From: Spiractinospora alimapuensis
Lineage (GTDB): Bacteria > Actinomycetota > Actinomycetes > Streptosporangiales > Streptosporangiaceae
Assembly (NCBI RefSeq): GCF_018437505.1
Contig: NZ_CP072467.1
Location: 4,488,010-4,552,009, forward strand
Direction: 5' to 3'
Length of the DNA: 64,000 bases
In this document: positions 9,382 through 25,951 of the stretch, piece after piece
Layout of the letters: every line of letters starts with the position of its first letter
Numbering within the stretch: position 1 is the first letter of the stretch
The notes under the pieces: model-generated
Seen by the model: the letters and a program-made list of their open reading frames with translations, nothing else
Database searches by the model: none
Told to the model about the DNA's origin: nothing
Position numbers and translations under genes: made by a program

Positions 9382-9549
9382 CGGTGGGGCGTGTACGGCA
9401 CGCCCGGTCGACGACCCGGCACTCGCCCCGCCCGCTCCGGGATGTCCGCCGCCGAGCCGGGAATGAAGACTCTCGGTGGGACGCCCCGGACGGGGAGCCC
9501 GACGTCGGCGGCGACCGGCGGTGTGAGTCAGCGAGTCAAGGAGGTGTTC

Positions 9550-10590
9550 GTGGCCGAAACCGATGGTCCGGCCGGGGGTTCACGGTCGCTGGACGCGGCC
9601 GCGGCAGTGGCCGAGCAGGTGCTCTTTCCGGCGGCATTGGAGGTCGACACCGCCGAACGGGTCCCGGAGGGACACTTCCAGCGGATCGCGGAGATCGGGT
9701 TCTACGGATTCGCCGCACCGGACGGCCTGAACACCCTGGACCTCCCGGACTTCGCGTCCGTCTGTCGCGCCGTGGAGACGCTCGCCGGGGGATGTCTGAC
9801 GACCACTTTCGTCTGGCTGCAGCACCACGGGGCCGTCACGGCCGCCGCGAACACCCAGAACCACGCCCTGCGCGACACCTACCTCGAATCCCTGCTCACG
9901 GGAGAGCGTCGCGCGGGCGTCGCGGTCACCGCCGCGGTCCGACCCGGTCTACCCCAGTTGCGGGCTGAGCCAGCGAGTGGGGGATGGTACCTCGACGGCG
10001 TCGCCCCCTGGGTGACCGGTTGGGGAATGATCGACACCCTCTACGTCGCCGCACGCGACGCCAACGACGCCCTCGTCATGGCGCTTGTCGACGCCGAGGA
10101 GAGCGAGTGCCTCCAGGCGGGACCACCCGCGCGGCTCGTGGCCACGAACGCCGGCCGCACGGTCACGTTGCGCTTCTCCCGGTACTTCCTGCCGCGGGAG
10201 CGGGTCGCGTCGATCACCCCGCGAGAGACCTACCTACGAGGCGACGCGGAGACGGTGCGGTTCAACGGGAACCTCGCCCTCGGTGTCGCCGGTCGGGCGA
10301 TCACCCTCATGGGAGAGGACGGACAGGCGCTCTCCGCCCAACTCTCTCGGACCCGGGACCGGCTGCTCTCCACGACCCCCGAACACGTCCCGACGGCGCG
10401 CGCGGCCACCTCTGAGCTCGCGATGCGCACCGCCGCCGCGCTCACGACCTACGTTGGTGGCCGTTCCCTGCTCACCGACGCGCACGCCCAGCGGTTGGTC
10501 CGGGAGGCGACGTTCCTCCTCGCCTTCGGAACACGCCCGACGATCCGGTCCGCCCTCCTGCGAACGCTCAGCACGCGCGAGTCGACCTGA
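9550..10590 (+). CDS. Acyl-CoA dehydrogenase-like flavoprotein
   Basis: A 346-residue protein with the three-part acyl-CoA dehydrogenase layout: helical N-terminal domain, a central beta domain (GGWYLDGVAPWVTGWGMIDTLYVAARD) and a helical C-terminal domain ending in AFGTRPTIRSALL. I chose the GTG at 9550 because AAGGAGG lies six bases upstream; the frame is open further back but without a ribosome site. It converges on the thiopeptide operon with a strong terminator between. Whether it belongs to that pathway is unknown; the opposite orientation and the terminator argue against co-transcription. Confidence 0.75.
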   Translation: MAETDGPAGGSRSLDAAAAVAEQVLFPAALEVDTAERVPEGHFQRIAEIGFYGFAAPDGLNTLDLPDFASVCRAVETLAGGCLTTTFVWLQHHGAVTAAANTQNHALRDTYLESLLTGERRAGVAVTAAVRPGLPQLRAEPASGGWYLDGVAPWVTGWGMIDTLYVAARDANDALVMALVDAEESECLQAGPPARLVATNAGRTVTLRFSRYFLPRERVASITPRETYLRGDAETVRFNGNLALGVAGRAITLMGEDGQALSAQLSRTRDRLLSTTPEHVPTARAATSELAMRTAAALTTYVGGRSLLTDAHAQRLVREATFLLAFGTRPTIRSALLRTLSTREST

Positions 10591-10653: not shown

Positions 10654-10989
10654 TCACCCGTTCAGCGCGAGGCCGAGACCAGAAAGGGTCTCGTTGACAC
10701 TCTTCCCCTCGGTGACCGCCTCGAGATCGAACATGTAAACCGACGTCGGCGGGTAGCCGATCCTCTCGATCGAACGGCTCACACTGAAGCATCCGTCGAC
10801 GTACTCCGGTCCGTCCCAGAGATACACCGCGCCCCACATCTGACGCTCCGCGTCGGAGAACCACGCCTTGAGACGCAGGCCCTCCAGCTCCGAGAACGCC
10901 GCGATCGCGTGCTCCCGGAGGTACTCTCGGAGACTCTCCGGGGACTCCGCGGAATGACTGAGGTCCCACGCGACGATCATCACCTGCAT
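10654..10989 (-). CDS. YdhR-like/antibiotic-biosynthesis-monooxygenase-fold small protein
   Basis: A 111-residue protein with the ferredoxin-like alpha/beta pattern of the YdhR and ABM families: strand QVMIVAWDL, helix LREYLREHAIAAF, then LRLKAWFSDAERQMWGAVYLW. This last part lines up with the K-V-W-T-E-S...G-G-I-Y-L-F region of YdhR. Its start lies 11 nt after the YcaO stop, so it is the last gene of the thiopeptide operon and very likely co-transcribed. It could be a cofactor-free oxygenase acting on the peptide, or a small binding protein; no catalytic residue can be named. I do not know it from other thiopeptide clusters. Confidence 0.65.
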   Translation of the reverse strand: MQVMIVAWDLSHSAESPESLREYLREHAIAAFSELEGLRLKAWFSDAERQMWGAVYLWDGPEYVDGCFSVSRSIERIGYPPTSVYMFDLEAVTEGKSVNETLSGLGLALNG

Positions 10990-11000
10990 GGTTGCGCTCC

Positions 11001-12998
11001 TTAGGGAAATGGATGCGGGTGGTGGCTGATGTCCTCGGGCCGCAGTGGGCGGTCCTTGTACCCCAGGGCGTGCGGCACGTCGTGCAGCCGAGGAAGGCCG
11101 TCAACCCGCCGGAACTCGTGACCGAACGTCATGGGCAGCGTGCCGGGAATGATGACCTTGACGCAGACGAAGCCGCCCGCGCGGTGCTCCGGGGTGCTCT
11201 GGTCCACGACGATGACATCGAGGCCGCGTTCGTGGAGTCGACGCAGGAGCTCGGCGAGGTCGTCGCGCAGGTCGTCGCTGGCGGGGATGCGTGGCATGTC
11301 GGAGATCGGGCGTGCCGTCGCGGCCGTGCCCAGGAAGTCGAAGCGGGAGAACGCGTCCGGATGGCCGTAGAGCTGGGTGTGGTGCGCCATCCGGGTCACG
11401 AGCGAGGGGTCACGCACCATCTCCCGGGCCTGCTCCTGCAGGGCGGGATCCTGCGACGCGAAGTTGGCCGTCATGGGGCCGAGCTCGTTCAGGGACCGCT
11501 CGATCGCTCGCTCCGGATCGAGGTGTGACCCGCCCGAACAGGCGACCTTCGCTGTCGCGGGGTCATCGGTGGGGTTCACGGCCATGGTCCACACGCACGG
11601 GATTCCGTACTCGAGGGTCGTGTCGAAGGTGTGCACCGAGTAGCCGGTCTCCTGCTCGATCGTTTCGACGAGGAGCGGTAGAGCGGGGTTCCGCGCCGTG
11701 GAGACGTCGACCCGGTTGACCGACATCCTCGCGTACCACGTCATGAGGAACGAGTCCCGCTCGGCCACTTCGAGGATTCCGTAGAAGATGGCCTCCTCGA
11801 TGCTGCTGCCGAGCGCGCACCCGTTGGAGCACTCGTAGACGAACGGCGGGTTCTCCGGGCCGGCCCGCCGCATCAACCGGTAGTACACGTAGTTCTCGGG
11901 CACCAGGATTGGGGCCGACCGCGAGAAGGAGTAGCCCCACACCCACGAACAGGGGACGTCCTCGGTGAACCTCCGGAACCCGAAGCCGGGAACGTGCCGT
12001 TCGGGCGGATAGAGCCCGAGGGTGCGCGGGTCGAGCGCCTGCTCGGCCACTTCGGTGAAGGGTGCGTGGACGACCGTTCGCTTCCCGGCGGCGTGCGTGC
12101 CCCCGTATCTCTCCAACGCCTCCAACAGAGCGACCACGCGACTCGAGTGATAGCTGCGGGTCCACCCGAATCCGTACTCGACCGAGTCCGCGTGCGCGCC
12201 CAGCTCCGCGGACGCCGTGACGACCCCGGCGCCGCTGCCCTTCGTCATCGTGTGGACGAGACCGCACTCGGAGTCGACGTACAGGCGCTCCAGTGCGTCC
12301 CAGTGTCTCTCGACGTCGCGTACACGGAACGTCTCGGGGGACACCTTCGGGCGAGGGAGCAGGTCGATACGAGCGAGGGACGCGGAGTCGTCCGGACGGC
12401 TGTCGCAGCGGACGCACCGGGGGTCGGTGAGGAAGCGGTGGGTCGTCACCTCGAGGGAGTCCAAAGCGACGACCACCAAAGCGTTGCGCGTGCGTGCCGT
12501 CCCCGGATCCGAGGCGACCCGGTGGACCTCGTCGACGACGATCCCGGCCACCAGGTCCGCCGCCAGCGGGGTGAGCCACGCCGACGGTCGGTTCGCCATG
12601 GTCTCACCGTGCAGTCGTCGTACCTCCGCGTGACCCTGAGGGCTGGATCGGGCCGAGCGCCTGCGGAACTCCGCACAGTCCACACATCCGGGAACCCCGG
12701 GGGACTCCGCCGGCCCCACCACGACCCGGCCGAGTTCGGCCCGCACCGGGACCCAGGTCACGTCCGCGGCGACGGCGGCCGCGCGTACGCGTGGATACGG
12801 TTCGTCGTCCCAGCCGTCGCTCGCCACGACCACGACGGAGCCGGTTGGGAACGAGGTGCGCCCCGGTGTGGCCAGCGTGAGCTCGGCTTCCCCCAGGGCG
12901 GCGTGCTCCGAGACGATGGCGTCCGCCAGCACGCCCGCCCCGACCAGTGTAAGAGCGGGTTTGTTGGTGACCTCGACTTTGGCGGTCGGACTAGGCAT
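11001..12998 (-). CDS. YcaO cyclodehydratase (TbtG-like), thiazoline-forming
   Basis: A 665-residue azoline-forming cyclodehydratase. The N-terminal third is ThiF-like with a four-cysteine zinc site split as CVDC (near residue 107) and CVRC (near 198). The YcaO domain follows with GSGAGVVTASAELGA, then SRVVALLEALERYGG, the ATP-binding region of YcaO enzymes, and ALGSSIEEAIFYGILEVAERD. The C-terminus ends in HPHPFP, the proline-rich tail typical of peptide cyclodehydratases. It would use ATP to convert core Cys (and perhaps Ser) to azolines with the adjacent leader-binding protein. Its ATG overlaps the preceding gene's stop by 8 nt. Confidence 0.88.
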   Translation of the reverse strand: MPSPTAKVEVTNKPALTLVGAGVLADAIVSEHAALGEAELTLATPGRTSFPTGSVVVVASDGWDDEPYPRVRAAAVAADVTWVPVRAELGRVVVGPAESPGVPGCVDCAEFRRRSARSSPQGHAEVRRLHGETMANRPSAWLTPLAADLVAGIVVDEVHRVASDPGTARTRNALVVVALDSLEVTTHRFLTDPRCVRCDSRPDDSASLARIDLLPRPKVSPETFRVRDVERHWDALERLYVDSECGLVHTMTKGSGAGVVTASAELGAHADSVEYGFGWTRSYHSSRVVALLEALERYGGTHAAGKRTVVHAPFTEVAEQALDPRTLGLYPPERHVPGFGFRRFTEDVPCSWVWGYSFSRSAPILVPENYVYYRLMRRAGPENPPFVYECSNGCALGSSIEEAIFYGILEVAERDSFLMTWYARMSVNRVDVSTARNPALPLLVETIEQETGYSVHTFDTTLEYGIPCVWTMAVNPTDDPATAKVACSGGSHLDPERAIERSLNELGPMTANFASQDPALQEQAREMVRDPSLVTRMAHHTQLYGHPDAFSRFDFLGTAATARPISDMPRIPASDDLRDDLAELLRRLHERGLDVIVVDQSTPEHRAGGFVCVKVIIPGTLPMTFGHEFRRVDGLPRLHDVPHALGYKDRPLRPEDISHHPHPFP

Positions 12999-15057
12999 CG
13001 ACGAGCACCACCCTCACGACGAACGGGACCTTCGAACTCACCTCTGGGTCGTGGTCGAGGGGGACGGCGAGCGGGCGACGGCCCCGCGTCACTAGTCGGG
13101 CCGTGAGGTCGGCGATGCCCAGTGGCTCCTGGTGCCCCACGGAGACGCTGGGACCGTCGTGCCGCCTCACAGGCAGGTCGGGAGCGGTCGGCGCGTAGAC
13201 CCACTGCCGCTGCGCGTCGGCCTGGTAGGCCAACAGAGCCCGCTCCATCGCTTCGCGAAGGGCCTCCTGGAGAGTCGTCCCCGTCGCCACCGTCACGGGA
13301 TCCCCGGCACGGAAGCAGGCGACTGTGGGGACCCCCAGAGCCGATGTCGCCTCGTGGAAGGTGAACCCCGGACTGATCCGCGCCAGCATCGACCGGTACC
13401 GATCGGCGTCGTCGCCGACGGTCACTCCGCGAGGATCGAGGAGCGGCGACAGCGCGGACGACGCGGCGATGTCGTCCGTCGCGATCTGTTGGCAGTGTTC
13501 GAGGAGCGCGGACTTGACGGCCTCCTCCCAGCTGTAACCCGCGGCCGTACCCGTGTGGAGAGCGTAGGCGCCGTACCCGGAGGTCGAGTCGGGGTGCGCC
13601 CGCCCGCGCCGCAGGGCCGGAAAGACGATGTCGGGGGCCACCAGGGTGGCGGAACCATCCGCCAGGTCGTATGCCCAGCAACGGACGCCGGCATCGCCCT
13701 GGCGCACGGCGTTCAGCATCGCCTCAGGGGAGGTGGCCCCCCAATCGGGGGTCTCGCCCCGGGGAGAAGCGAACCGTCGCGGATCGACCATCAGTGAGCC
13801 GTACAGAGCGAACGCCCGAAGCACCGCGCGGTGCCGCGCGGTCTCGAAACTGAGGCCCGCGGCGACCGCCGTCGGCACCCCCTCACGGTCGTCGAGGAGC
13901 CCGACCGGGTCGGACGACTCCACCCGACAGGTGTGCAGTGGGAACTGGGCCAGCTCACCCTCATCGGGTTCACCGATGGCACCGAGTTGGTCCCCGGTGC
14001 ACAACACGGCGGCTCGTGAGAACTCCTCCCACTCCTGCCCTGGATGGTCCGCCAACGCGGCGATCCGCTTGAGAAAACCGGCTTCGGTGTCAGGTCTGAC
14101 GTCCGACTCCGCCAGCGGGTGCGCGAGGACGCGGTGCGTCGTGCCGCCGAGTGTCACCGGATCCAGGCACGTCACCACCCCTTGCTCCCCCGGCGGGATT
14201 CCGGTGGTGGCCCGCAGGACGCCCTGGACCGCCCGCACAGCCGCCGCCCGTGCCGCCAAGCGGGGGAGCGGGGCGGCCGGCGTCGTACCCGCGTCCTCGG
14301 CCGGCCGTCGCGCGGCTCCACGTCGTCGCACGGACTCCCAGTCCACACCCGAAGGCGAGATCCACACGGCCCGGCGCCAGAGGACGACCCGCGCGAGGGT
14401 GATGGCCTCTTCGCGACAGACCGTTCCCAGCGGATCGGGACCACTCACCGACGGCGTCTCCGAGGCGTGGAGAACGAGGTCGACGTCGGCGAGCAGGCGC
14501 CGCAACCGTGTCTCCGACGGATGGAGGTCCACGTGCTCGGTCGGTCCGGGAAACGACGAGGCCCCAGGCTGGGTGGACATCGGGTCGAAGCCCGAGTCCG
14601 TCTCGCCCGTGACGACCACACGCAGGTCCTCCAACCCAGCGGCGACCGCGGCCGCAGTGGTCGCCGCCAACAGGCGACCCGACCCGAGCACGACCGTCCG
14701 CGTCGCTTGGAACCGTGTGAACGCGGCCGCTCCGTCGGCGCGGAAATACCGAAGGAAACTGGCGCCGAGGGGAAGCTCCGGTGACGGAGCGGGAGGGTGC
14801 GCGGCGCCGTCCACGTCGCGGAGGGCACCACGGTCACGCAGCGTCGTGACCAGGTCCTCCACCAGCCGTCGCCGCTCTGGCGAGAGGTTCGCGGTGAGAT
14901 CGCCGAGGCTGTGTCGTCCGTTGAGGTAGGGGGCGAGGCGTTCGATGACCAAATAGATCGAATCGCCGGTCAGGTGCAGTGATCCGTGATGGCTGAGTAG
15001 GTAGACACCCTCGGGCGACTTCGCGTAGTAGACGTCGGGACGCAGCAACAGTCCCAC
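12991..15057 (-). CDS. Leader-peptide-binding ThiF-like partner of YcaO (TbtF-like)
   Basis: A 688-residue protein. Residues 1-85 (PDVYYAKSPEGVYLLSHHG, then YLVIERLAPYLNGRHSL and VEDLVTTLRDRGAL) form a PqqD-like RiPP recognition element, the domain that grips the leader peptide. A degenerate ThiF/E1-like segment follows (TVVLGSGRLLAATTAAAVAAG), and the C-terminal half is distantly YcaO-like without an obvious ATP site. In thiomuracin-type clusters the homologous F protein delivers precursor to the YcaO enzyme. It begins 12 nt after the SagB stop. I considered it as a second active cyclodehydratase but the missing ATP motifs favour the F-protein role. Confidence 0.8.
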   Translation of the reverse strand: MGLLLRPDVYYAKSPEGVYLLSHHGSLHLTGDSIYLVIERLAPYLNGRHSLGDLTANLSPERRRLVEDLVTTLRDRGALRDVDGAAHPPAPSPELPLGASFLRYFRADGAAAFTRFQATRTVVLGSGRLLAATTAAAVAAGLEDLRVVVTGETDSGFDPMSTQPGASSFPGPTEHVDLHPSETRLRRLLADVDLVLHASETPSVSGPDPLGTVCREEAITLARVVLWRRAVWISPSGVDWESVRRRGAARRPAEDAGTTPAAPLPRLAARAAAVRAVQGVLRATTGIPPGEQGVVTCLDPVTLGGTTHRVLAHPLAESDVRPDTEAGFLKRIAALADHPGQEWEEFSRAAVLCTGDQLGAIGEPDEGELAQFPLHTCRVESSDPVGLLDDREGVPTAVAAGLSFETARHRAVLRAFALYGSLMVDPRRFASPRGETPDWGATSPEAMLNAVRQGDAGVRCWAYDLADGSATLVAPDIVFPALRRGRAHPDSTSGYGAYALHTGTAAGYSWEEAVKSALLEHCQQIATDDIAASSALSPLLDPRGVTVGDDADRYRSMLARISPGFTFHEATSALGVPTVACFRAGDPVTVATGTTLQEALREAMERALLAYQADAQRQWVYAPTAPDLPVRRHDGPSVSVGHQEPLGIADLTARLVTRGRRPLAVPLDHDPEVSSKVPFVVRVVLVDA

Positions 15058-15069
15058 TCGGTCCTCCTG

Positions 15070-16485
15070 TCATTCGTCCGGTCGTCGACTGCCCAGGGAG
15101 AATTCGCCAACGGCGCTCTCCGCTGCGTAATCCACCCCTGTCGCGGCGTTGAAGTCCGTGGCGTCGCCACCTCCGAGGCCGCAGGCGGCAAGCCCCATCG
15201 CCGTCGCCGCCAGATACATCGACTGGTACAGAACGCCGACGTGCTTGAGGACCAGGGAGTAGGGCATCTGTTCGTAGGTCCAGGCGAGCCGGCCGAATCG
15301 GGCGGTGAGCACGAGGAGGACCTGGGGTGGCTCGGCTGCCGGTGCGGCGCGCAGGGCCGCGCGCAGAAGGCGGCGCACCGGAGGCCCACCCGGACTCACC
15401 GTGCGGAGCCCGTGGGAGTGCGAGTCGTAGTGGTACATCCCCGAGGGGAGACCCGACACGCGTCGGACCACGGGGTAGATCTCCAGCTCGTAGGCCGATC
15501 CGCCGGACGGGTGTGGGCGGTTGGGGTATTCCACGCCGTCCACCTCGCGCGTCGTCCGCACCCGGGCACACCGGTAGAGGAACTCGCCAAGCTGGTCCAC
15601 GGTGATCGGGTGGTCGTCGTCGTGGTGCCGCACGGATCGGCGGTCCTCGACGACGGCGGCGAGCGGTGGATCGTCCCGACGGATCCGTGTCAGGTCCGCC
15701 GCGGGCAACGGGATCTCAGGGCCCGGGTAGGGGGGCCGCCGACCGGGGAGCGGAGTATGGAGCCCGCGGGCCCACTGTGTGCGCCCATACGCCTCCTCCC
15801 GGTCGGAGCGGTCGGTCATACGCGACTGGCGGTGGAACCACAGTTCGTGTGGTGTCCACTGGCTCAGCGTGAGGTCGGAATGCTCCCCGCCGTCCGGGGC
15901 CTCCATCAGGCCGGCACGTCGCAGGTCCCGCAGCAGGGCGTCGACGGTCACGGCTTCGACCCCCAGGTCGGACAGCCTCGACAGTGTGGCGAGGTCCGAC
16001 GCGCCGCCGGCGAGTACACCAAGCGCCGCCTGGACCCCCACATCGAGGGTCTCCAGTCGCGCGTTCGCCAGCGGTGACTCCGCGACGAGACCGTCGCGGT
16101 CGCGGCGCAGCACCGTGAACCGGGAGAGCCGAAGCCTGGACTCGACGTCTTCCCGCGTTGGACCCAGTTCGGGCCCAACGGGACGGAGGGTGTAGAGCGC
16201 TCGTTCCCCGAGGTGGGGCGTCACGGACAGCCAGCCGCCGCGCCGCAGTCGTTCGAGCAGCGCGTCGACCTCGTCCGCTGTCGCCCCAGACGCTGACGTG
16301 AGGCGCGACCGAAGGCAGCCGTGGGCGAGCTGGCCGAGGACCGACGTGAGCCATGGAAGGTTTGGCCCCACCTCCTCGTTGCGCCGGCCCGTCGCCAACC
16401 AGACGCCGTCGTGGCCTCGGGCGCACGACACCCCGCCCACCAACCGGAGTTCCACCTCGTGGCCGCCCCACTCCAGGTTCCTCAC
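15070..16485 (-). CDS. SagB-type FMN azoline dehydrogenase (TbtE-like)
   Basis: A 471-residue protein whose C-terminal half is a SagB/nitroreductase domain: VVEDRRSVRHHDDDHPIT, then YPNRPHPSGGSAYELEIYP, and VGVLYQSMYLAATAMGLAACG, the usual FMN-binding and active-site segments. The N-terminal half is a helical leader- or partner-contacting region seen in thiopeptide dehydrogenases. It would oxidise azolines to aromatic thiazoles/oxazoles. The GTG start overlaps the pyridine-synthase stop as GTGA, indicating coupled translation. Confidence 0.87.
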   Translation of the reverse strand: MRNLEWGGHEVELRLVGGVSCARGHDGVWLATGRRNEEVGPNLPWLTSVLGQLAHGCLRSRLTSASGATADEVDALLERLRRGGWLSVTPHLGERALYTLRPVGPELGPTREDVESRLRLSRFTVLRRDRDGLVAESPLANARLETLDVGVQAALGVLAGGASDLATLSRLSDLGVEAVTVDALLRDLRRAGLMEAPDGGEHSDLTLSQWTPHELWFHRQSRMTDRSDREEAYGRTQWARGLHTPLPGRRPPYPGPEIPLPAADLTRIRRDDPPLAAVVEDRRSVRHHDDDHPITVDQLGEFLYRCARVRTTREVDGVEYPNRPHPSGGSAYELEIYPVVRRVSGLPSGMYHYDSHSHGLRTVSPGGPPVRRLLRAALRAAPAAEPPQVLLVLTARFGRLAWTYEQMPYSLVLKHVGVLYQSMYLAATAMGLAACGLGGGDATDFNAATGVDYAAESAVGEFSLGSRRPDE

Positions 16486-17591
16486 ACGGGCTCCTCACGA
16501 ATGTCCGATGTCGGGGCCGGCGGCTCCTCCTCGATCTGACGCATGGCCGAGACTCCGAACACGTCCTCGACGGCACGTGCGGCCAGGTGGCACAGCAGGA
16601 AGCGTTCCTGTGGCGTGACGCCGAGCTGGGTCAGGAACAGGTAGGTGTGGTTGAGCATCGTTCGGTAGAGAACGAACCAGTGTGCGGTCATCGAGTCCAT
16701 GACCGCCGGGTTGTGGAAGGCCGCACGGTGGTAGGGGCTGACGTGCACCAACGGGGGCGGATTCCCGTTGGCGTCCGTGGAGAACCCGTGCTCGGTCGGG
16801 AGCTGGCCGCGTGCCAGGAGTTGGGATGCGCGGACGTGGTACGACCGCGTGATCGAGGTCCAGTCCGCCACGAACTCGGAGGTCGGGGCGTCGCCGTCCA
16901 GTCCGGCCACCGTGTCCGACACCCGTCGCCGCAGGGTGGCCTCGTGGAGGCGATAGTGGTCGTCCCAGGGGCCACGAAGAGTCTCGGCCCCTGGGTACAT
17001 GGCGAGAAAGGCGTCCGCGTGGGACCGGAACGACATGAACCCTGTGGTGACGCCGACGCCCGACAGGACGTGGGCGGTGGCGATCATCAGGTCCAAGGCA
17101 TGGCCGAGACGGGGTCGACCGGTCGACACGTCTTGGAGTATCCGGAACGCGAGCTCGGTGGTGTCGGCGTGGAAGTCGGCGAGCAGGTCTACCGCCTCCT
17201 CACTGCCCAGGGCGCGGGGCCGACGTTCGAATGGAGCCTCGTGCAGGGTGTTGTTCGGGCGCCACGGCGTCAGCGGTCCGTGCTCGTCCTCGAGCCGTGC
17301 GAGTTCGCGGTGCCGCTGTTCGTACTCCTCGGGGGCCAACACCGTGCGGGACGGATGGCGTGAGAGGAACCCTCCGATCGTCTCGCGTGCCGCGGGGCGT
17401 ACGACGCCCGCCATCGTCGCCGCGTCACAGCGCAGGTGGAGGCGTACGTGCGGTCCCAACCGCCAGTGACGCGTGAAGGACATCGCGGGAATCGTGGACG
17501 ACAGGCGTCGGAAGAACGGCCGCACGGCCTCCAGGAGCAGGTGGTCCTTATCCCTGTCGTAGTACACGACGTGCAGACTGCGCCACGACAC
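16482..17591 (-). CDS. Thiopeptide pyridine synthase ([4+2] cycloaddition enzyme, TbtD-like)
   Basis: A 369-residue member of the thiopeptide-type biosynthesis family. FTRHWRLGPHVRLHLR near residue 45 is the family signature. The C-terminal block VMDSMTAHWFVLYRTMLN, then LFLTQLGVTPQERFLLCHLA, matches pyridine synthases rather than eliminases. It would join two dehydroalanines of the modified core, forming the six-membered nitrogen ring and releasing the leader peptide. Its GTG start overlaps the 3' end of the eliminase gene by 44 nt. Assignment between TbtC- and TbtD-like roles rests on the C-terminal block and on gene order. Confidence 0.87.
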   Translation of the reverse strand: MSWRSLHVVYYDRDKDHLLLEAVRPFFRRLSSTIPAMSFTRHWRLGPHVRLHLRCDAATMAGVVRPAARETIGGFLSRHPSRTVLAPEEYEQRHRELARLEDEHGPLTPWRPNNTLHEAPFERRPRALGSEEAVDLLADFHADTTELAFRILQDVSTGRPRLGHALDLMIATAHVLSGVGVTTGFMSFRSHADAFLAMYPGAETLRGPWDDHYRLHEATLRRRVSDTVAGLDGDAPTSEFVADWTSITRSYHVRASQLLARGQLPTEHGFSTDANGNPPPLVHVSPYHRAAFHNPAVMDSMTAHWFVLYRTMLNHTYLFLTQLGVTPQERFLLCHLAARAVEDVFGVSAMRQIEEEPPAPTSDIREEPV

Positions 17592-18558
17592 CCGTGTCCT
17601 CCCCGTTCTCGTTCCCCTCGGGAGCTTCCTCGGAGGCCAGCTCCCTGACAGCGTCGGCCGCCATCCCCCGCACCACGTCCTCGGCGTTCAGCAGCACGCC
17701 GATCCGGTTGCAGAACAAGTGGGCGCAGGTGTCCAGCACCTGGAACACCTCGATCGCCGGACGGTCCTCCGACGGGCACCGTTCCAGGGCGTCCCGAAGC
17801 GCGGTGACCGACCGGGACCAGTCGACGAAGGTTCCGGAGCGCCGCACCTGGTCCACGTGTGAGGCCAGGGTCCGCAGACTTCGCGCGATCTCGGTCGCCT
17901 CGCCGGTCGCCCCTCGGCCACCCCTGCGTGGGGAACCGCCCAGACCGAGGAGGTCCACGGACGCTGGCACCGTCGGACTCGCGGTACCGATCCGTTCGGC
18001 CAGGCTGGGCAGGTCCGGCTCACACGCCAGCCAGGCGAGCAGGATCGCCGCGTAGGCGCTGGTGGTGCGTTGCTCGGACGTCGTTCCCGGACGGAGTAGC
18101 TGGGACGCGAGCTCGCTCGACTCCGTGAAGTGGCGCTCCACGGCCTCGATCGCGGAGTTCCTCCCATACCGGTCGTGCTCACGGGAGTAGGGGAGGCACA
18201 CCAGGGAGTTGTCGGGTCTCAGCTCGGTGGCGAAGGACGACTTCCGTTCCCGCCGGGAGTAGGAGGCCGCGAGGTGCAGGTAGTGGTCAAGCCGCATCCG
18301 TCCTCGGCTCGGGTTGTCGCGGAGGTAGGTCTCCAAGCGGTTCCGGAGCAGCTCCTCGACCGCACCGCGTCGACCGTCTTCCGGCAGGACGCGTAGCCGC
18401 ACGTGCGGTCCGCCCTCCCAGTACCGCAGGAAGAACCAGTCGCGCAGTGCGTTCTCGGCCCGGAGTTCCCCCATCAGGGGGGCGATCCCTTCGGACACGA
18501 GCCCCTCCAGGTCGTCGTGCCGGAACACGTGGACACTGATCCAGTCCGATTCGGCCAT
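17548..18558 (-). CDS. Split LanB dehydratase, glutamate-elimination subunit (TbtC-like)
   Basis: A 336-residue protein with the elimination-domain signature: VHVFRHDDLEGLV, then DWFFLRYWEGGPHVRLRVL near residue 40, and CAHLFCNRIGVLLNAED near the C-terminus, comparable to the H-x-x-C-N-R-L ending of lantibiotic dehydratases. It would remove glutamate from glutamylated Ser/Thr to give dehydroamino acids. It starts one base after the glutamylation gene stops, so the two halves of the dehydratase are made together. Confidence 0.85.
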   Translation of the reverse strand: MAESDWISVHVFRHDDLEGLVSEGIAPLMGELRAENALRDWFFLRYWEGGPHVRLRVLPEDGRRGAVEELLRNRLETYLRDNPSRGRMRLDHYLHLAASYSRRERKSSFATELRPDNSLVCLPYSREHDRYGRNSAIEAVERHFTESSELASQLLRPGTTSEQRTTSAYAAILLAWLACEPDLPSLAERIGTASPTVPASVDLLGLGGSPRRGGRGATGEATEIARSLRTLASHVDQVRRSGTFVDWSRSVTALRDALERCPSEDRPAIEVFQVLDTCAHLFCNRIGVLLNAEDVVRGMAADAVRELASEEAPEGNENGEDTGVVAQSARRVLRQG

Positions 18559-18559
18559 G

Positions 18560-21322
18560 TCAGCTCCCTGGGTCGGAGAGTTCGACGAGAAACTCGGTCA
18601 CGGCGGGGTCGGCCTCCGGGGCGCTGGCCTGGTCCGGAGCGGGCAACGCCTCCTCGAACACCGCCATGGCGGATGTGCCGCCCACCATCCGCTCGAAAGC
18701 GGCGACCAGGAACCAGTTGGCGAAGTCCACGTAGAAGGGCTTGTGGCCCTTGCCCCACAGCCAGTCCGGGTCGGTGTGTCTGCTGCCGTCGGAGCCTGGA
18801 GCGGATGCCCACACCCGCACGAAGCACTGGGTTGGCACGCGGTGGGTTCGCAGCCAACGCAACAGACGGAGCCAGTACTGGGTGTCGGACTCTCCTGACG
18901 GGCGTCGTGGAACCTGGTCCGCCGGTGCCACCCAGCACGCTCGCCGGAGAACGACGGAGCCGACGGCGACGCGCCGGTAGGCCGTCACGGACTCCGGCGT
19001 TGTCAGCTCGTTATCGGCGACGAGCGCCACGTGGGGATAGGTGTAGAAGCTGTGGCCGAACACCTGCGTGAGGAACTGGGCCGCCGAGGGAAGGAAGAGA
19101 TCGCCCATCATGCCGACGTGGAGCGGCACGACACCGACCTCCCGGCTCTCGCTGCGCAGCCGGAGGAGTCCGACCGAGTCGTCGTGAACGACGACGCAGT
19201 CGCCCAGGCGGATCCGTTCCGAGTCCGGGCGCGTGCTCGAGGTGAAGGGGTAGTCGAGCTCGTGTGAGACCGCCGCGGTCCGGACGTTGACGGTCGATCC
19301 GAACTGACCGCTCAGTTCAGCCATCAGAGGGCCCGCGGCGGGTGCCGACGGCTGGCGGTCGGCGGGCGGAATTCCCCCCGCTCGGTCGACGAGGTGTGCC
19401 ACGCGGCTCCTGCCCCGGCCGTGGCCGTTGTGCATGGCGTTGAGCACGAGTGACGGATCCCGCTCCCTGTTCGTTGCCTGTAGGTAGCAGGCGACGGAGG
19501 GCGAGGTCTCGACCCACCGGGGCCAGATGGTCGCCCAGGCGACCATCTCCGTCGGGTCGACGTGAACGACGCCGTCACGTACGTCGGTGGAGAGAACCGC
19601 GTCCCGCGCGGCGTCCTGGAGATGGGCCAACTCGCGAAGCCGCGGAAGCTGACTGCCGGTCAGGGGCCGGAGGAGCTGGGTCCGGGCGTGCATCAGCCGT
19701 ACGACCTCCCGTGCCGCGGGAGTTCGACCGCCGTCGTCGCCGTGGCGCAACTCCTGGTGCAGGGCCCGGTGCGCCGCCAGGAAAGGCACGGCCGTGCCGG
19801 GACCGAACCGTTCGCGGAAGAACTCCGCGAAGGCCAGCTTGAGGGGAAGGGACGGGTCGAACAGAGCCAGCCAGCGGCGAACCGCGTCCAGGTCCTTAAG
19901 GGCGGGGTGCCACCGAGTGACCGCGCACGCCGTCGCGGGTTGGACATGGACGGAGCTTTCGTGGAACGCCCACTTCGCCGTCCGTGCGTCCACCTTGGTC
20001 GGTAGCGCCACGTGCGTGGCGACGCGATCGAGGAGCCGCGTCAGGTGCCGCTGGCGCTGGCCGTGCCCGGCGAGATCATCCACCGGAACGTCGCGGCCGG
20101 CCTCGTCGTGTAGTTCCCCGATCAGGGTGGCCAAAGGGGTGAGCCGCGCGTCGCGGGTTTCGGCCAACCACCGTGCCAGTGCGTCGAGGGGGGCCTTCGC
20201 GAGGTCCGGTGTGGGCGGTACCACCTCCAACAGCCCCAGCTCGACTAGCCCGTCCAGAAACGCTTCGACGTCGGCACCAGGGGCGTTCCCCAGGCGCGTC
20301 AGCGCGTCGCGCAGGTTCGCCCGGGGACACGCGGTACCACGTTCGAGGATCCCGGCGCACGCACGGAGGGCGGCGGTCGCGGGCATCGTCATGATGGCCT
20401 CGTCCGGGCGCGGCCCGACGAAGCTCACCCGGTCGCCGGTGAACGTCGCGCTCGGGTTGAGGCGCAGCGGTAGCGAACGCCTGAGCTCCGGATCGGTGGA
20501 CAGGCTTCGGACCAGTCCTTGGACGAACGCCCCGTCCAGTTCGACCACAGCACGCACCCGTGGCCGGTCCACTATTCGCACCGCTGGTCCGTCGGCGCTC
20601 CACTCGCCGAGTCCGCTGACCATGAAGGTGCTGTACGGGCTGGTCTTGGCCGACGCCCGCGCGACGTACGAAGCCAGCGCGACCTGCGCGCGAAAGCGCG
20701 GAGCGCGGGGTGCCCCGCCCAACCAGGCGGAGACCTCCGCGGACAGTGAAGGGCTCGCCTGCGCGAGACCGCGGCGTAGGTTCGGGTGTCGCGCCGCGGC
20801 GCGGAGCGAGTCGAGTCTCTCCTCACGCTCGGCGGCGAACACCTCCTGAAGTCGCTCGATCTCACCGGGCGCTTCAAGGAAGTCACTGATCCACCGACGG
20901 ACGTGATCGGCGAGGTCGAGGGGGAGAGCGCGCGCCACGATGGGGTTCCATTCGGTCTCCCGTGGGGCACGCGGTCTGTGCAGAGCCCTCCGGAGACCGA
21001 CCATATGTGGTTTCGGTGGACCGTCCGGCAGGGTGCCGATGACGTCGTAGAGAGCGTCCGCGAGTTGTCGGGCCTCCGACTCCAGCCGGTGATGGTGCTC
21101 CGCGATCTCGTTGAGGGCTGTGAACGAACGTTCGAACCGAAGCCCCCGCAGAACCCGTACGGGAAGACCGGCCACGCGGACGACCGGGGGTGCCCCCACA
21201 CGCGTACCGCCGGGCAGGGTCAGCGATGAGATCTCGGCGGCCATCGAATCGATTCTCAATTCACCGTCCATCCAGACCGTCCGCCCGTGCCATTCCTGGT
21301 GACCCGAAGGATTTGCCCTCAT
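18560..21322 (-). CDS. Split LanB dehydratase, tRNA-Glu-dependent glutamylation subunit (TbtB-like)
   Basis: A protein of about 920 residues covering only the N-terminal (glutamylation) part of LanB enzymes: RFERSFTALNEIAEHHHRLE early, then ARASAKTSPYSTFMVSGLG, the most conserved stretch of the family, and HKPFYVDFANWFLVAAFERM at the end. In this family glutamyl-tRNA glutamylates core Ser/Thr before elimination. No strong ribosome site is visible: GTG 21328, ATG 21322 and ATG 21271 are all possible, and translation may be coupled to the precursor gene 69-75 nt upstream. Confidence 0.88.
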   Translation of the reverse strand: MRANPSGHQEWHGRTVWMDGELRIDSMAAEISSLTLPGGTRVGAPPVVRVAGLPVRVLRGLRFERSFTALNEIAEHHHRLESEARQLADALYDVIGTLPDGPPKPHMVGLRRALHRPRAPRETEWNPIVARALPLDLADHVRRWISDFLEAPGEIERLQEVFAAEREERLDSLRAAARHPNLRRGLAQASPSLSAEVSAWLGGAPRAPRFRAQVALASYVARASAKTSPYSTFMVSGLGEWSADGPAVRIVDRPRVRAVVELDGAFVQGLVRSLSTDPELRRSLPLRLNPSATFTGDRVSFVGPRPDEAIMTMPATAALRACAGILERGTACPRANLRDALTRLGNAPGADVEAFLDGLVELGLLEVVPPTPDLAKAPLDALARWLAETRDARLTPLATLIGELHDEAGRDVPVDDLAGHGQRQRHLTRLLDRVATHVALPTKVDARTAKWAFHESSVHVQPATACAVTRWHPALKDLDAVRRWLALFDPSLPLKLAFAEFFRERFGPGTAVPFLAAHRALHQELRHGDDGGRTPAAREVVRLMHARTQLLRPLTGSQLPRLRELAHLQDAARDAVLSTDVRDGVVHVDPTEMVAWATIWPRWVETSPSVACYLQATNRERDPSLVLNAMHNGHGRGRSRVAHLVDRAGGIPPADRQPSAPAAGPLMAELSGQFGSTVNVRTAAVSHELDYPFTSSTRPDSERIRLGDCVVVHDDSVGLLRLRSESREVGVVPLHVGMMGDLFLPSAAQFLTQVFGHSFYTYPHVALVADNELTTPESVTAYRRVAVGSVVLRRACWVAPADQVPRRPSGESDTQYWLRLLRWLRTHRVPTQCFVRVWASAPGSDGSRHTDPDWLWGKGHKPFYVDFANWFLVAAFERMVGGTSAMAVFEEALPAPDQASAPEADPAVTEFLVELSDPGS

Positions 21323-21396
21323 GGCCACCAGGGTTGTTGGGTCAGTGATTGGTCATTTTTACAGGGCGGATGTCAGGGACAGGTGGCCGGAATCGG

Positions 21397-21594
21397 TCAG
21401 CATGCCGGGCTGCTGCATGCGCACTTCGCTTCGTTGCAGATTGAGGAGGCACCGTTCTCTGGAAGTCCGTGGCCTTCGGTCAGGGTCTCGAGGGTGAGGC
21501 CGCGGTCCGCGAGGTCGAAAACATCGACAGGGACCGAGCTCAGGTCGAACTCGAGTTTGTCTGAGACGGATCCGTTCGGTTTGGGGTTGGGCAC
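21397..21594 (-). CDS. Thiopeptide precursor peptide (TbtA-like)
   Basis: A 65-residue precursor starting with GTG behind AGGAGAGGAG. The leader segment VPVDVFDLADRGLTLETL plus TEGHGLPENGA is close to the thiomuracin/GE2270 leaders (which read roughly L-P-M-D-V-F-E-L-A-D-x-G-V-A-V-E-S-L-T-A-G-H-G-M-x-E-x-G-A). By that alignment the core begins after ENGA and is SSICNEAKCACSSPAC, 16 residues with four Ser and four Cys. C11-S12 has the Cys-Ser arrangement that precedes the pyridine in known thiopeptides, and S13-P14 recalls the GE2270 tail. E6 and K8 are charged residues rarely seen in thiopeptide rings. It is the first gene of the operon. Confidence 0.9.
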   Translation of the reverse strand: MPNPKPNGSVSDKLEFDLSSVPVDVFDLADRGLTLETLTEGHGLPENGASSICNEAKCACSSPAC

Positions 21595-22163
21595 ACCTAA
21601 CTCCTCTCCTGGTCATCGTGCTTTCGCACGAAAATGCCAAGCGGATTTCGCTTGGACATCTGAGGTGCCCATGTCACCGGGTTCGGAATTTGTTCGCACC
21701 CGGCGGAGGGCTGTGACAGGGGGTAGTTGTTGGTAGCACTCTGCAGAGAGTAAGTGAGGTGGTTGGAGGGGTCAAGAGGCAGGTCAGAGTGCATGAGATG
21801 GTGAGGTCTCGGTCAATCCGAAACTGGGACACCGGATGGCTGTGTGGCGTGTGATGCCCCCGGGGGTGAGGTGATTCTAATGTCCGAGGGCGAGCGTGTC
21901 CCGTTCTCCGCGTCGTTTTCACCGGCGGGACCTGGGGGGTTCGAACGGCGCTGTGCGATCGAAGTCGATGATTTGTGGTCATGATTGGGTGTGTGCAGAT
22001 TTGGGTGGCCCATCTCCTATCCCATTGTCTATTGCGCATTCCCCGAGTTTGTGTTCTTGTGGTCAATCGGAAAGGGGTAACGAGGGACTAGCTGTACGGC
22101 GACCCTGTTCTCCTGCGTAGCGAACACGCGTAACCGAGGAGACCCGACCGCGGAAATGGTGCC
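21595..22163. promoter_or_regulatory. Divergent control region of the thiopeptide cluster
   Basis: This 569-bp gap between the precursor (minus) and the P450 (plus) is AT-richer than the flanking genes and must hold both promoters. Stretches such as GAGAGTAAGTGAGG and GATTGGGTGTGTGCAG are present but I cannot assign -35/-10 pairs reliably. Short open frames here have no ribosome sites or family resemblance. Confidence 0.5.
21617..21655 (-). promoter_or_regulatory. Two adjacent hairpins in the precursor mRNA leader
   Basis: In minus-strand sense, a 7-bp stem CCAAGCG/CGCTTGG (21637-21655, 5-nt loop) is followed by CATTTTCG and a second 5-bp stem CGTGC/GCACG (21617-21630), then the ribosome site and GTG start of the precursor 23 nt on. 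The first hairpin plus the T-run resembles a weak attenuator or mRNA-stabilising structure. Confidence 0.45.
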
Positions 22164-23474
22164 ATGCGTCTGACGCGAGACATCGCCCGTCAGGTGAAAC
22201 GTCCACCGAGTCTTCCGTATCCACGAATCGTGCAGACCGCCCTGTGGTTCCGTGACCCAAAGGGTGTGCTTACCCGGTGTCAGGAACGCTTTGGCGACGT
22301 GTTTCGTGTCGAAATGGCGCACCAGGGTACCTGGGTGTTCCTCAGTGGCCCAGAGGACGTCAAAAGCGTCTTCACCGCACCGGCGGACCAGGTCCACGCG
22401 GGCGAGGGGAACGCGATGGTGCGTCCCGTCCTCGGGGAGAACTCCATCCTGCTCTTGGACGAGTCCGCCCACCTGGAGCAGCGCCGGCTCATGCTTCCGT
22501 CCTTCCACGGAGCACGGACCAGGAAGTACGCCGACCAGATGACGGAGATCGCCGCTACGGAGATCGACGGATGGCCGCGTGCGCGTCCGCACCGGGTGCG
22601 GGCGAGCATGCAGGCGATGACGATGGACTACATACTCCACGTCGTGTTCGGTGTCACGGACGCGGAGTGGCTGGAACCACTGCGAGAGAAACTCAACCGG
22701 CTCCTCACCATCGGCGCCGACCCGAAGCACGCCCTGTTCCTGCTCGCGTTCGGACCGGACCGGCTCGAGCGGTTCCCCCCATTCCGGCGCGAGATGCGTG
22801 AGATCGACCGACTGATCTACGGGGAGATCGCTCGACGGTCGAACGCGCCGGACCTCGCGGATCGGGAGGACGTCCTCTCGATGCTCCTCCGCGCACAGCA
22901 TGAGGACGGCGCGCCGATGACGCGTCGCGCGTTGCGGGACGAGCTGGTGACACTACTGGTCGCGGGGCACGAGACCACCGCGTCGGCGCTGGTCTCGGCG
23001 GTTCGTGAGTTGGTCCTTCATCCCGACGCGCTCGCCCGCTTGACGGACGACGTGCGATCCGGTTCCGACGTCTACCTCAAAGCCGTGATCCACGAGACGC
23101 TGCGTCTGCGTCCAGTGATCTCCATGATCCCGCGCACGCTGAAACGACCGATGGAACTCGGTGGTTATCGGATTCCCGCCGGCGTCAGGGTGGCACCCGC
23201 GATCTACCTGCTGCACCGTCGGCCCGATCTCTACCCCGAGCCCGACCGCTTCCTACCGGAACGATTCCTGGGCGGGCCTCCCGATCCCTACACCTGGATT
23301 CCCTTCGGCGGGGGCGTTCGTCGGTGCCTCGGCCGCGCGTTCGCGCAGCTAGAGATGGAAACCGTGTTGCGCGAGCTGGTGCGCCGCGTGGACCTTCATC
23401 CCGTCCCGCCGGGGCAAGCGGCGCGTGGCGGCGGAGCCGTGCCGACCTACGACGCCGAAGTGGTCGTCACCTGA
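22164..23474 (+). CDS. Cytochrome P450, thiopeptide tailoring candidate
   Basis: A 436-residue P450: I-helix oxygen-binding motif LVAGHETTASAL near residue 270, K-helix ETLRLRP (ExxR), and the haem loop FGGGVRRCLGRAFAQLE with the cysteine thiolate near residue 390. No membrane anchor, as usual for bacterial P450s, so it needs ferredoxin partners. It is divergent from the precursor and followed after 27 bp by the methyltransferase, which suggests a tailoring operon. In thiomuracin, P450s oxidise ring side chains; here Ile3 of the core would be an obvious target (inference). Confidence 0.88.
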   Translation: MRLTRDIARQVKRPPSLPYPRIVQTALWFRDPKGVLTRCQERFGDVFRVEMAHQGTWVFLSGPEDVKSVFTAPADQVHAGEGNAMVRPVLGENSILLLDESAHLEQRRLMLPSFHGARTRKYADQMTEIAATEIDGWPRARPHRVRASMQAMTMDYILHVVFGVTDAEWLEPLREKLNRLLTIGADPKHALFLLAFGPDRLERFPPFRREMREIDRLIYGEIARRSNAPDLADREDVLSMLLRAQHEDGAPMTRRALRDELVTLLVAGHETTASALVSAVRELVLHPDALARLTDDVRSGSDVYLKAVIHETLRLRPVISMIPRTLKRPMELGGYRIPAGVRVAPAIYLLHRRPDLYPEPDRFLPERFLGGPPDPYTWIPFGGGVRRCLGRAFAQLEMETVLRELVRRVDLHPVPPGQAARGGGAVPTYDAEVVVT

Positions 23475-23501: not shown

Positions 23502-24196
23502 GTGAGCACCGTTTCCATCGATGGACGACAGGCACAGCACATCGGCTGGATCCAGCACGTCAACGGGTGGACGGAGTTCTGCGGCCTGAGGATCGAGGTT
23601 GACCCCGGGGTCTTCGTGCCGCGGCACCGCTCGGAGTTCCTCGTGCGCGTGGCGGCGGAGCTGCTCCCGCCGCGGGCCGTCGTCGTCGACCTGTGCTGTG
23701 GGTCGGGAGCGGTGGGGGTCACCCTGTGTTCAGCCAGCCGTGGAATCGAACTCCACGGCGTCGACCTCGACCCCGCCGCCGTCGCGTGTGCCCGCAGGAA
23801 CGTCGCCCCTGTCGGCGGCAGGGTCTACGAGGGGGATCTCCTCGCGCCGTTGCCCGCCGACCTCACGGGTCGGGTCGACGTGATCGTGGGTAACGCGCCC
23901 TACATCACCAGTGACGAGAGCGGTCGTCTGCCCCTGGAGGTGCGTCTCTACGAATCCCGAATGGCGTTCGACGGCGGGAGCGACGGACTTGACATCCACC
24001 GGCGGTTGCTCCCGGAGGCAGGGCGCTGGCTCGCCCCGGGGGGTACCTGGTGCTGGAGTTGCATGAGAGCCAGGTCTCGTACGCGACCGAGCTGTTCACC
24101 GAGAACGGGCTCACGCCGCGCGTCATGTCCTCGGCGGAGGCCGACGCCACCGTCATCGTCGGCGTCAGGTCAGAGCCCGACGCCACGGGCGGCTGA
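23502..24196 (+). pseudogene. PrmC/HemK-like protein amide N-methyltransferase, frameshifted in this sequence
   Basis: The N-terminal frame gives WTEFCGLRIEVDPGVFVPRH, the SAM site VVVDLCCGSGAVGVTL and VGNAPYIT, a variant of the N-P-P-Y motif of PrmC/HemK enzymes that methylate side-chain amides. At a run of six G (24038-24043) the frame breaks. With one extra G it continues as GGYLVLELHESQVSYA to a TGA at 24194-24196, giving a normal ~231-residue enzyme with the expected C-terminus. So the gene has either a real 1-bp deletion or a sequencing error in a homopolymer. In this cluster it could N-methylate the Asn5 side chain of the core, as Asn3 is methylated in GE2270 (inference). Confidence 0.75.
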
Positions 24197-24238
24197 TCGA
24201 CGGCGCCCACCAAACGCCCCCGGTTCGGATCTGAGGCG

Positions 24239-24257
24239 GCCCCGTTCCGGGGCTTTT
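24239..24257. terminator. Intrinsic terminator after the methyltransferase
   Basis: GCCCCG TTC CGGGGC followed by TTTT (24254-24257) on the plus strand; lies between the methyltransferase stop and the converging MFS gene. Confidence 0.8.
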
Positions 24258-24287
24258 CGTGTGGGCCCTGGAACGGGGACGGGGATC

Positions 24288-25881
24288 TCACGCCTGAGCT
24301 GGAGCGCGTTCCGGTTCCTGCGAGGTGACTTCGTCCTCGGCGGAACCGTCGCCGGCCTTGGGGCGGAGGTACAACGCGGCCAGTATGGCCAGTACCAGTG
24401 CGACGGCGGCGCTCAGGTAGGAGACGGTGGTCAGTCCGGTCGTGAACGCGTTCTCCGCGGCGGCCAGCAGTTCTCCCGCCTGTGCTGCGGGCAACTGTTC
24501 GGCGATCGCGGCCGCGGACGGCATCCCCTGCTCGGCCGCCGAGGTCACCGACTCCGGCAGGCCCTCGGGCAGGTCCACCCGCAACCGGTAGATCATCGCC
24601 AGTAGGGAACCGAAGACGGCGATCCCCAGCGCGGCGCCGACCTCCGCGCCGGTCTCCGACATCGACGCCGCCGATCCGCTCTTCTCCTTGGGTGCCACCC
24701 GCAGCACGATCGTGTTCACCAGCACGATCAGCGGGCTCACTCCCAAGCCGACGATGACCGAACCGAGGATGGGCCAAGGCGAGCACCGTGCCCCCTTGGG
24801 ACAGTCCGTACAGACCGAAGCCGACGGCCGCGAGCAGGAGCCCCAGGGCCATCGCCCGATTCTCACCCAGTCGATTCGAGACCCTCGGGGTCAGCAGTGA
24901 ACCAAGGACGGACGCCACCGCCTGGGGGATCATCCAGAGTCCCGCGGCCCCCGGGGAGAAGCCCAGAACCAACTGCAGGTACTGGGCGAACAACAACCCG
25001 AAGGCCCCCATCGTCATGGACGCGACCAGCATCGTGCCCAGGCCCACGCTGAAGACTCGATGGCGGAACAGACTGAGGTCGAACAGCGGGTTGGCGAGAC
25101 GCCGCTGGAGACGCACGAAGACCCACCCGAAGGTCACCCCCACCACCAACGCGACGACCGTCGACAACTGGATCCCGTAGTTGGCGGCGTTCTTGATCGC
25201 GTAGACCGTCGGCAGGATCGCCAGCAAGGAGAGCACCACGCTCGCCAGGTTCATCCGCCCAGGGGCGGGGTCGCGGTACTCCGGAAGCAGGAACGGCCCC
25301 GCGAGAAGCACCAGCGCCATCACCGGCACACCGATCAGGAACACGGATCCCCACCAGAACCACTCCAGCATGGCGCCCCCGATCACGGGTCCCAGGGCCA
25401 GGCCGGCCATCAGCGTGGATGACCAGATCGCGATCGCCAGGCCCCGCTGCGTGGCGTCGAGGAAGAGGTTACGGATCAGCGCCAACGTGGAAGGCATCAC
25501 CGTCGCTCCGGCGACGCCCAGGAGCGCACGCGTCGCGATCAGCATCTCGGCGCTGGTGGAGAAGGCGGCGAAGACGGACGCCACGGCGAAGGCGGCGGCG
25601 CCCATCATCAGCAGGCGGCGGCGACCGATCCTGTCGCCAAGCGCACCCATGGTGACCAGGAGACCCGCGATCATGAACCCGTAGATGTCCAGGATCCACA
25701 GTTGCTGGGTGTTGCTGGCGCCCAAATCCATGGCGATGGCGGGGATCGCCAGGAACAACACCGTGATGTCGACAACCAGCAGCAGACAGGGCAGAACCAG
25801 GACCGCCAACCCGAGCCACTCTCGTGCGCCGGCCCGCGGTGGGGAAGCGGAGGGCGGAGAACCGTCCGTCGTTGTGTGCAT
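24288..25881 (-). pseudogene. MFS multidrug exporter (DHA2, 14-TM type), frameshifted in this sequence
   Basis: From ATG 25881 the protein reads as a DHA2 exporter: VLPCLLLVVDITVLFLAIPA (helix 1), LGDRIGRRRLLMMGA (motif A), GLALGPVIGGAMLEWFWWG (motif C), then many hydrophobic segments. Near 24774-24780 (around CCAAGG) the frame changes: the first frame degrades after GGTVLAL, while another frame continues as WPILGSVIVGLGVSPLIVLVNT to a normal C-terminus at 24288. Removing one base restores a ~530-residue transporter. Its place beside the tailoring genes suggests export of and self-protection from the thiopeptide. A longer open frame running to 23905 is an artefact of the shift. Confidence 0.78.
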
Positions 25882-25951
25882 TACGTACTCCAGTGGGGAA
25901 TGGGGCGACAGCGCGGACTGGGCTCGAGCCGCCCGGCCCCTGGGCGAGAGG

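Follow-up and report, generated by a model that had tools for sequence, protein, structure and literature searches.

A thiopeptide biosynthetic gene cluster lies within a stretch of 64,000 nucleotides from Spiractinospora alimapuensis (contig NZ_CP072467.1, positions 4,488,010 to 4,552,009 of the forward strand), the whole of which is referred to as the window. It is near certain that the cluster encodes a thiopeptide and that its enzymes are of the thiomuracin/GE2270 type. The predicted product is a 32-membered pyridine macrocycle closed between Ser1 and Ser12 of the core peptide and bearing a carboxamide end after removal of Ser13-Pro-Ala-Cys, with the terminal SSPAC motif used as a handle; as read from sequence, this route as a whole has about an even chance of being correct. 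The first-pass annotation of this DNA had proposed the same enzyme type and a gene order A-B-C-D-E-F-G; a small eighth gene is here termed X. Family and PDB matches of the enzymes support the proposed type, and the proposed order is correct: A to G and X are all full length and stand in the order A-B-C-D-E-F-G-X. Identities in the list below refer to the syntenic genes of a sister cluster in another genome, G323.

21397..21594, minus strand: A, precursor peptide, 65 amino acids, with a leader running to ...PENGA and the predicted core SSICNEAKCACSSPAC.
18560..21328, minus strand: B, TbtB-type glutamylating dehydratase (PF04738; PDB 6ec7, E 1.6e-135), 54% identity.
17548..18558, minus strand: C, glutamate-elimination subunit (PF14028, TIGR03891), 58% identity.
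16482..17591, minus strand: D, pyridine synthase (NF045556, 454 bits, cut-off 325), 61% identity.
15070..16485, minus strand: E, SagB-type azoline dehydrogenase (TIGR03605, over cut-off), 62% identity.
12991..15057, minus strand: F, ocin-ThiF-like protein (TIGR03693, 94 bits, under the cut-off of 561.9), 46% identity.
11001..12998, minus strand: G, YcaO cyclodehydratase (TIGR03604, 355 bits, cut-off 219), 69% identity.
10654..10989, minus strand: X, NosA homologue (terminal amide synthase), 111 amino acids, 79% identity.

The matches of B and C to PF04738, PF14028, TIGR03891 and PDB 6ec7 are those of a split tRNA-dependent dehydratase; the last entry, titled 'Lantibiotic dehydratase domain protein' in the PDB, is presumably TbtB. 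D is recognized as a [4+2] pyridine synthase by NF045556, the TbtD/PbtD equivalog model, and only TbtD (E 2.9e-64) and PbtD (E 1.4e-54) match it in the PDB; D matches at E <= 1e-20 occur in 63 of the 341 family genomes. An azole synthetase is represented by the YcaO protein and E, both over their cut-offs, and by F, whose score stays below its own. F is placed by its position and its resemblance to the G323 gene, and its presumed binding of the leader is suggested by the position.

The GTG start of A is preceded by AGGAGAGGAG, and its product ends in GASSICNEAKCACSSPAC. Its match to Thiopep_pre (PF19409) is narrow (24.8 bits against a cut-off of 23.5). The best match among the seven proteins listed, the window's own apart, is Streptomonospora P0002, 83% identical (E 9.4e-29), and comparison with the syntenic G323 gene reveals 26 silent and 11 residue-changing codon differences, 6 and 2 of which, respectively, fall within the core. 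As the family match, the homologue and the predominance of silent differences concur, A is not a chance reading frame. The core shows the features noted in the first-pass annotation: four Cys, the charged residues E6 and K8, and a Ser pair at either end. The leader/core boundary assigned there, GA|S, also holds: a precursor-alignment search retrieved 87 proteins, 79 of which can be cut at this boundary by a rule that requires Ser, and 8 of which cannot. The core of P0002, SSICNELMCACSSPAC, is identical to the window core in 14 of 16 residues, A7-K8 being replaced by Leu-Met in both P0002 and G323. The G323 core is identical to that of P0002; the two are not equated here because the N-termini of their precursors differ slightly. 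The core was thus described as unfamiliar with partial justification. No identical core in a characterised thiopeptide was found in the literature searched, and the exact core strings retrieved no relevant paper there (subscription journals lie largely outside it, and matches to SSICNE are fortuitous, judging by title). The core is not unique, however: near-identical ones occur in Streptomonospora and G323, and such a core is already present in databases under the automatic name 'thiomuracin/GE37468 family'. To our knowledge, no product has been assigned to Streptomonospora P0002 or the G323 cluster. Stem-loops are predicted at positions 21600-21680, directly before the ribosome-binding site of A; an RNA element was rejected at this place, as the window has no Rfam match at gathering score and the sequence and fold are not kept in G323.

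The homology of X to NosA is well defined. NosA (PDB 4za1, E 2.7e-24) is its only solved relative found by sequence below E 0.5, and K41 and E90 of X align with the critical K49 and E101 of NosA, so that both the homology and the residue pair of NosA terminal amide synthases are found in X. NosA cuts a terminal dehydroalanine (Dha) and thereby generates the amide at the C-terminus of nosiheptide; its K49A and E101A variants are reported as devoid of activity, and NocA, PbtH, TpdK and BerI are named as homologues (PMC4525488). X is present in 11 of 40 related stretches, with the same Lys and Glu as judged by eye; in the other 29 it is absent from the fetched 12-20 kb, which may be an effect of the span fetched. 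As in the window, a NosA-family gene follows G in a GE2270-type cluster (L142), the core tail of which, SPSA, extends one residue past its last Ser. A Pfam match of X to 'ydhR mono-oxygenase' (21.2 bits, under the cut-off of 27.1) is superseded by the match to NosA. In one further locus (L135, G006:C34), the X gene accompanies the core SCFEDDPTGSLSCTS, which has three acidic residues and no Cys-Ser junction.

Because a NosA homologue is encoded, Ser13 is read as a Dha at which the peptide is cut; Ser13 as an oxazole and SSPAC as a retained tail, both envisaged in the first-pass annotation, appear less likely. Several points weigh against this role of X. The C-terminal loop of NosA (residues 112-151) is missing in X, the alignment ending at NosA residue 120, and truncation of NosA to residues 1-120 is reported to cause a significant loss of activity, while the K49A effect may be exerted through folding (PMC4525488). 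Moreover, the natural substrate of NosA ends at Dha, whereas X is predicted to cut a Dha with three residues after it; as Pro-Ala-Cys follows Dha13, X must cut internally, or after the end has been trimmed. The absent loop and the different substrate would favour a product with the same 32-membered ring in which Dha13-Pro-Ala-Cys (or a terminal thiazole) is kept and X trims nothing or acts elsewhere. The SSPAC end, identical across four cores, would then be conserved because the molecule itself needs it. Such a product is considered unlikely: X is clearly a NosA homologue with both critical residues, we know of no role other than terminal amide synthesis for the NosA family, and L142 combines an X gene with a core that continues beyond its last tail Ser.

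The favoured reading is that SSPAC is a C-terminal recognition handle, probably absent from the product. The motif ends 4 of the 87 retrieved precursors (the window, P0002, P0003 and P0020), around three different rings. Identical last five residues are shared by 17 of 2701 core pairs; five of the six SSPAC pairs have a ring identity of 0.33-0.47, and the five other same-ended pairs with a ring identity below 0.5 have ends consisting of Ser alone or of Cys and Ser only. A comparison of P0003 with 394 genomes of the class gave four matches, none of them a new SSPAC locus (the place G006:C14 was left out). One scan of genome contigs gave a single locus at 38%. Pyritide enzymes are described as requiring the leader and a C-terminal tripeptide while accepting rings of 14-68 members (PMC9247985). 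SSPAC is interpreted as a handle by analogy with them, because the end is invariant and the ring is variable. Against this reading, the junction Ser of the SSPAC-tailed P0003 is preceded by Val, which does not form an azole. More tentatively, and with less than an even chance of being correct, these precursors could constitute a natural family suited to ring evolution. Leader and SSPAC exit tag would both stay constant, the ring between them would vary in its residues and from 32 to perhaps 44 members, and removal of the tag by a NosA-type enzyme would leave no trace of the recognition element in the product. If SSPAC is a removable handle, it would be a natural counterpart of the two-site recognition behind the tolerance of pyritide enzymes, with an added traceless release step useful for ring libraries.

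The size of the ring is determined by the two serines that close it, and a ring that joins Ser1 to Ser n has 2+3(n-2) members. The assignment of C11-S12 as the azole-pyridine junction in the first-pass annotation is plausible, and of the two sizes that it derived, 32 (Ser1-Ser12) is favoured here over 29 (Ser2-Ser12). Of 85 distinct cores (74 from retrieved proteins and 11 from genome loci), 33 have Cys at position 2, 15 have Ser and 37 have another residue. The SSPAC-tailed P0020 starts with SCCG, Ser1 being its only N-terminal Ser. Because position 2 varies and is Cys in P0020, Ser1 is the likely ring partner rather than Ser2. When the first Cys-Ser at n >= 9 is taken as the junction, n = 12 and 32 members result for 11 of the 85 cores, including those of the window and its sister, and 29 members, the size given in PMC3917276, result for cores of the GE2270 and thiomuracin types. 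The junction rule is rough, as it leaves 11 of the 85 cores unanswered and yields an unlikely 23-membered ring for 11.

A 29-membered EF-Tu-type ring closed by Ser2 and Ser12, which would leave Ser1 outside the ring as a further N-terminal Dha or oxazole, would suit the resemblance of the leader and the enzymes to those of the 29-membered GE2270 and thiomuracin, and Ser2 occurs in every SSPAC core except P0020. It is nevertheless improbable. The leader ends directly before Ser1, the required Ser2 is absent in P0020 at a position that is variable overall, and the genome has a single EF-Tu gene over the cut-off. In addition, 29-membered binders have Asn at one fixed position (PMC3917276), and Asn5 of the window core is placed differently from the Asn of the GE2270 and thiomuracin cores. 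Closure of Ser1 with Ser13 to a 35-membered ring, in which Ser12 would become an oxazole and Pro-Ala-Cys the tail, is just as doubtful: X would have no tail Ser to act on, and C11-S12, the usual Cys-Ser junction, would be disregarded. Ring formation after a Ser-derived azole does take place in lactazole and berninamycin. Thiopeptides of 35 members exist: a 2014 review (PMC3917276) lists 26, 29 and 35 members for the known rings.

When 39 D proteins were placed in a maximum-likelihood tree, the window grouped with G323 (100/100), followed by G246 and G182 (97/93). Ring size looks labile, as the rings predicted for the tree neighbours differ or could not be assigned; that ring size tracks the pyridine synthase tree was rejected, there being no clean mapping with ring labels that were set by eye and that in some rows disagree with the Cys-Ser rule. 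Other precursors illustrate the variety of cores. Those of P0008 (SSICASNMCSCCS) and P0009 (SSVCVTTYCSCCS) resemble the start of the window ring, with C9-S10-C11 where the window has Ala10, which suggests a 26-membered ring. One enzyme set at L124 (G246:C97) has a divergent pair of precursors nearby, SCPTCAGGAVCICSCFSL and STVSPPCYCSQCCSCCVTL; both would have 38-membered rings if closed at Ser14, whereas the junction rule predicts 38 members for SCPTCAGGAVCICSCFSL but 26 for STVSPPCYCSQCCSCCVTL. The precursor at L154 (G170:C76) has an unusually long core, STGSMPCSFNTVCCCACCSQTCSTPAPYAFENGSDELE.

The route to the favoured 32-membered product can be outlined as follows. F/G and E would turn Cys4, Cys9 and Cys11 into thiazoles, and Ser1, Ser12 and Ser13 would be dehydrated by B and C. 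D would then couple Dha1 with Dha12, form the pyridine and expel the leader as an amide. During these steps the SSPAC end might act together with the leader as the C-terminal recognition handle. X would hydrolyse the enamide at Dha13, so that pyruvoyl-Pro-Ala-Cys leaves and -CONH2 remains. The ring might be decorated by a neighbouring P450, an acyl-CoA-dehydrogenase-like protein and perhaps a methyltransferase, with Ile3 and Asn5, which are kept in the closest pair, as candidate sites. Before tailoring, the computed [M+H]+ of the tail-free product is 1083.36, or 1065.35 with Dha2; that of a tail-retaining product is 1424.46, or 1404.44 with a fourth thiazole.

Thiomuracin and GE2270 (tbt, pbt) share with the window the PF19409 leader, separate genes B-C-D-E-F-G and a TbtD/PbtD-type pyridine synthase; the window differs in its core sequence, its four Cys, the Ser1-Ser12 spacing (a predicted 32 members against 29), the SSPAC end and the acyl-CoA-dehydrogenase-like and PrmC-like neighbours. 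Lactazole A is described as 32-membered, low in Cys, Ser and Thr and lacking antibacterial activity; its residue 2 need not be an azole, and its cluster is a compact one of five enzymes (PMC7210931). The window would share this ring size as predicted, with a Ser1-Ser12 spacing that fits by sequence, and it resembles lactazole in the low Cys/Ser/Thr content and in the freedom at residue 2. Its genes, in contrast, are separate and Tbt-type (B to G), with X, a P450 and a flavoprotein, and do not form a compact five-enzyme set. Pyritides (MroA-D) likewise have a variable ring set between a leader and C-terminal residues that are both fixed (PMC9247985). They have no azole genes, whereas the window encodes YcaO, F and E, and its end is predicted to be removed. 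The closest system remains that of Streptomonospora P0002 and G323, with the similar core and, in G323, synteny over the whole 15-kb block. Sulfomycin and litoralimycin, reported from Streptomonospora litoralis, are assigned to other cores (PMC8448680). In the literature searched, no title among the papers containing both 'thiopeptide' and '32-membered' names a Tbt-type product of this size. If the prediction is true, the rare 32-membered ring, so far that of lactazole, would be reached by separate Tbt-type enzymes and would contain two charged residues.

The product may lie outside the two classical thiopeptide targets, as only one EF-Tu exceeds the cut-off and a TSNR-type methyltransferase is missing. 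GE2270 producers possess a second, resistant EF-Tu. No second EF-Tu was found over the cut-off in the window genome (individual resistance positions were left aside), and EF-Tu duplication as a means of self-resistance was accordingly rejected; the closest solved relative of the single EF-Tu is 7vmx. The TSNR_N methyltransferase has no match in the window genome and one in G323.

The span of 10654..21594 proposed in the first-pass annotation is too narrow. Comparison of all window frames of at least 90 codons with a 51-kb stretch from G323 (E <= 1e-25) shows a common block from 9391 to ~24,060, about 15 kb, with nothing in common beyond it. The following genes flank A to X:

9391..10590, plus strand: acyl-CoA-dehydrogenase-like flavoprotein, convergent with X, 62% identical to the syntenic G323 gene; start uncertain.
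22164..23474, plus strand: P450, divergent from A, 69-70% identical to the G323 gene beside the sister cluster.
23502..24060, plus strand: PrmC-like methyltransferase, catalytic domain only, with an NAPY motif, 64% identical to G323.
23905-26106, minus strand: MFS gene, candidate exporter, adjoining the shared block.

When the five best candidates per genome were scored in the 341 family genomes, the P450 was matched at E <= 1e-90 in five: its own, G323 and three others at 44-47%, which are outside the 63 genomes having a D match. In the window and in G323 alike, the N-terminal part of PrmC is missing from the methyltransferase. That it is an asparagine N-methyltransferase is a speculative idea: Asn5, although kept in the closest pair, is absent in P0003 and P0020, PrmC-like genes 55-65% identical occur in other genomes, and the frame is broken in the window. 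This frame changes near 24.05 kb, an interruption that counts against a decorating role, and at 23502-24900 both the methyltransferase and the adjoining MFS efflux-type gene shift frame within ~1 kb. The shifts may represent decay or assembly indels. A pathway that is silent or decaying in this strain would explain them; it has little probability, given that none of the genes A to G and X is truncated, that the precursor differences to G323 are mostly silent and that indels may have arisen in the assembly (single contig, completeness 96.9%).

The MFS gene has no counterpart near the G323 cluster. An MFS stretch of 55% identity (L132, 14794-15636, G169) lies ~2 kb from another thiopeptide precursor. 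G323 itself has three further Thiopep_pre matches (G323:C57 and G323:C77).

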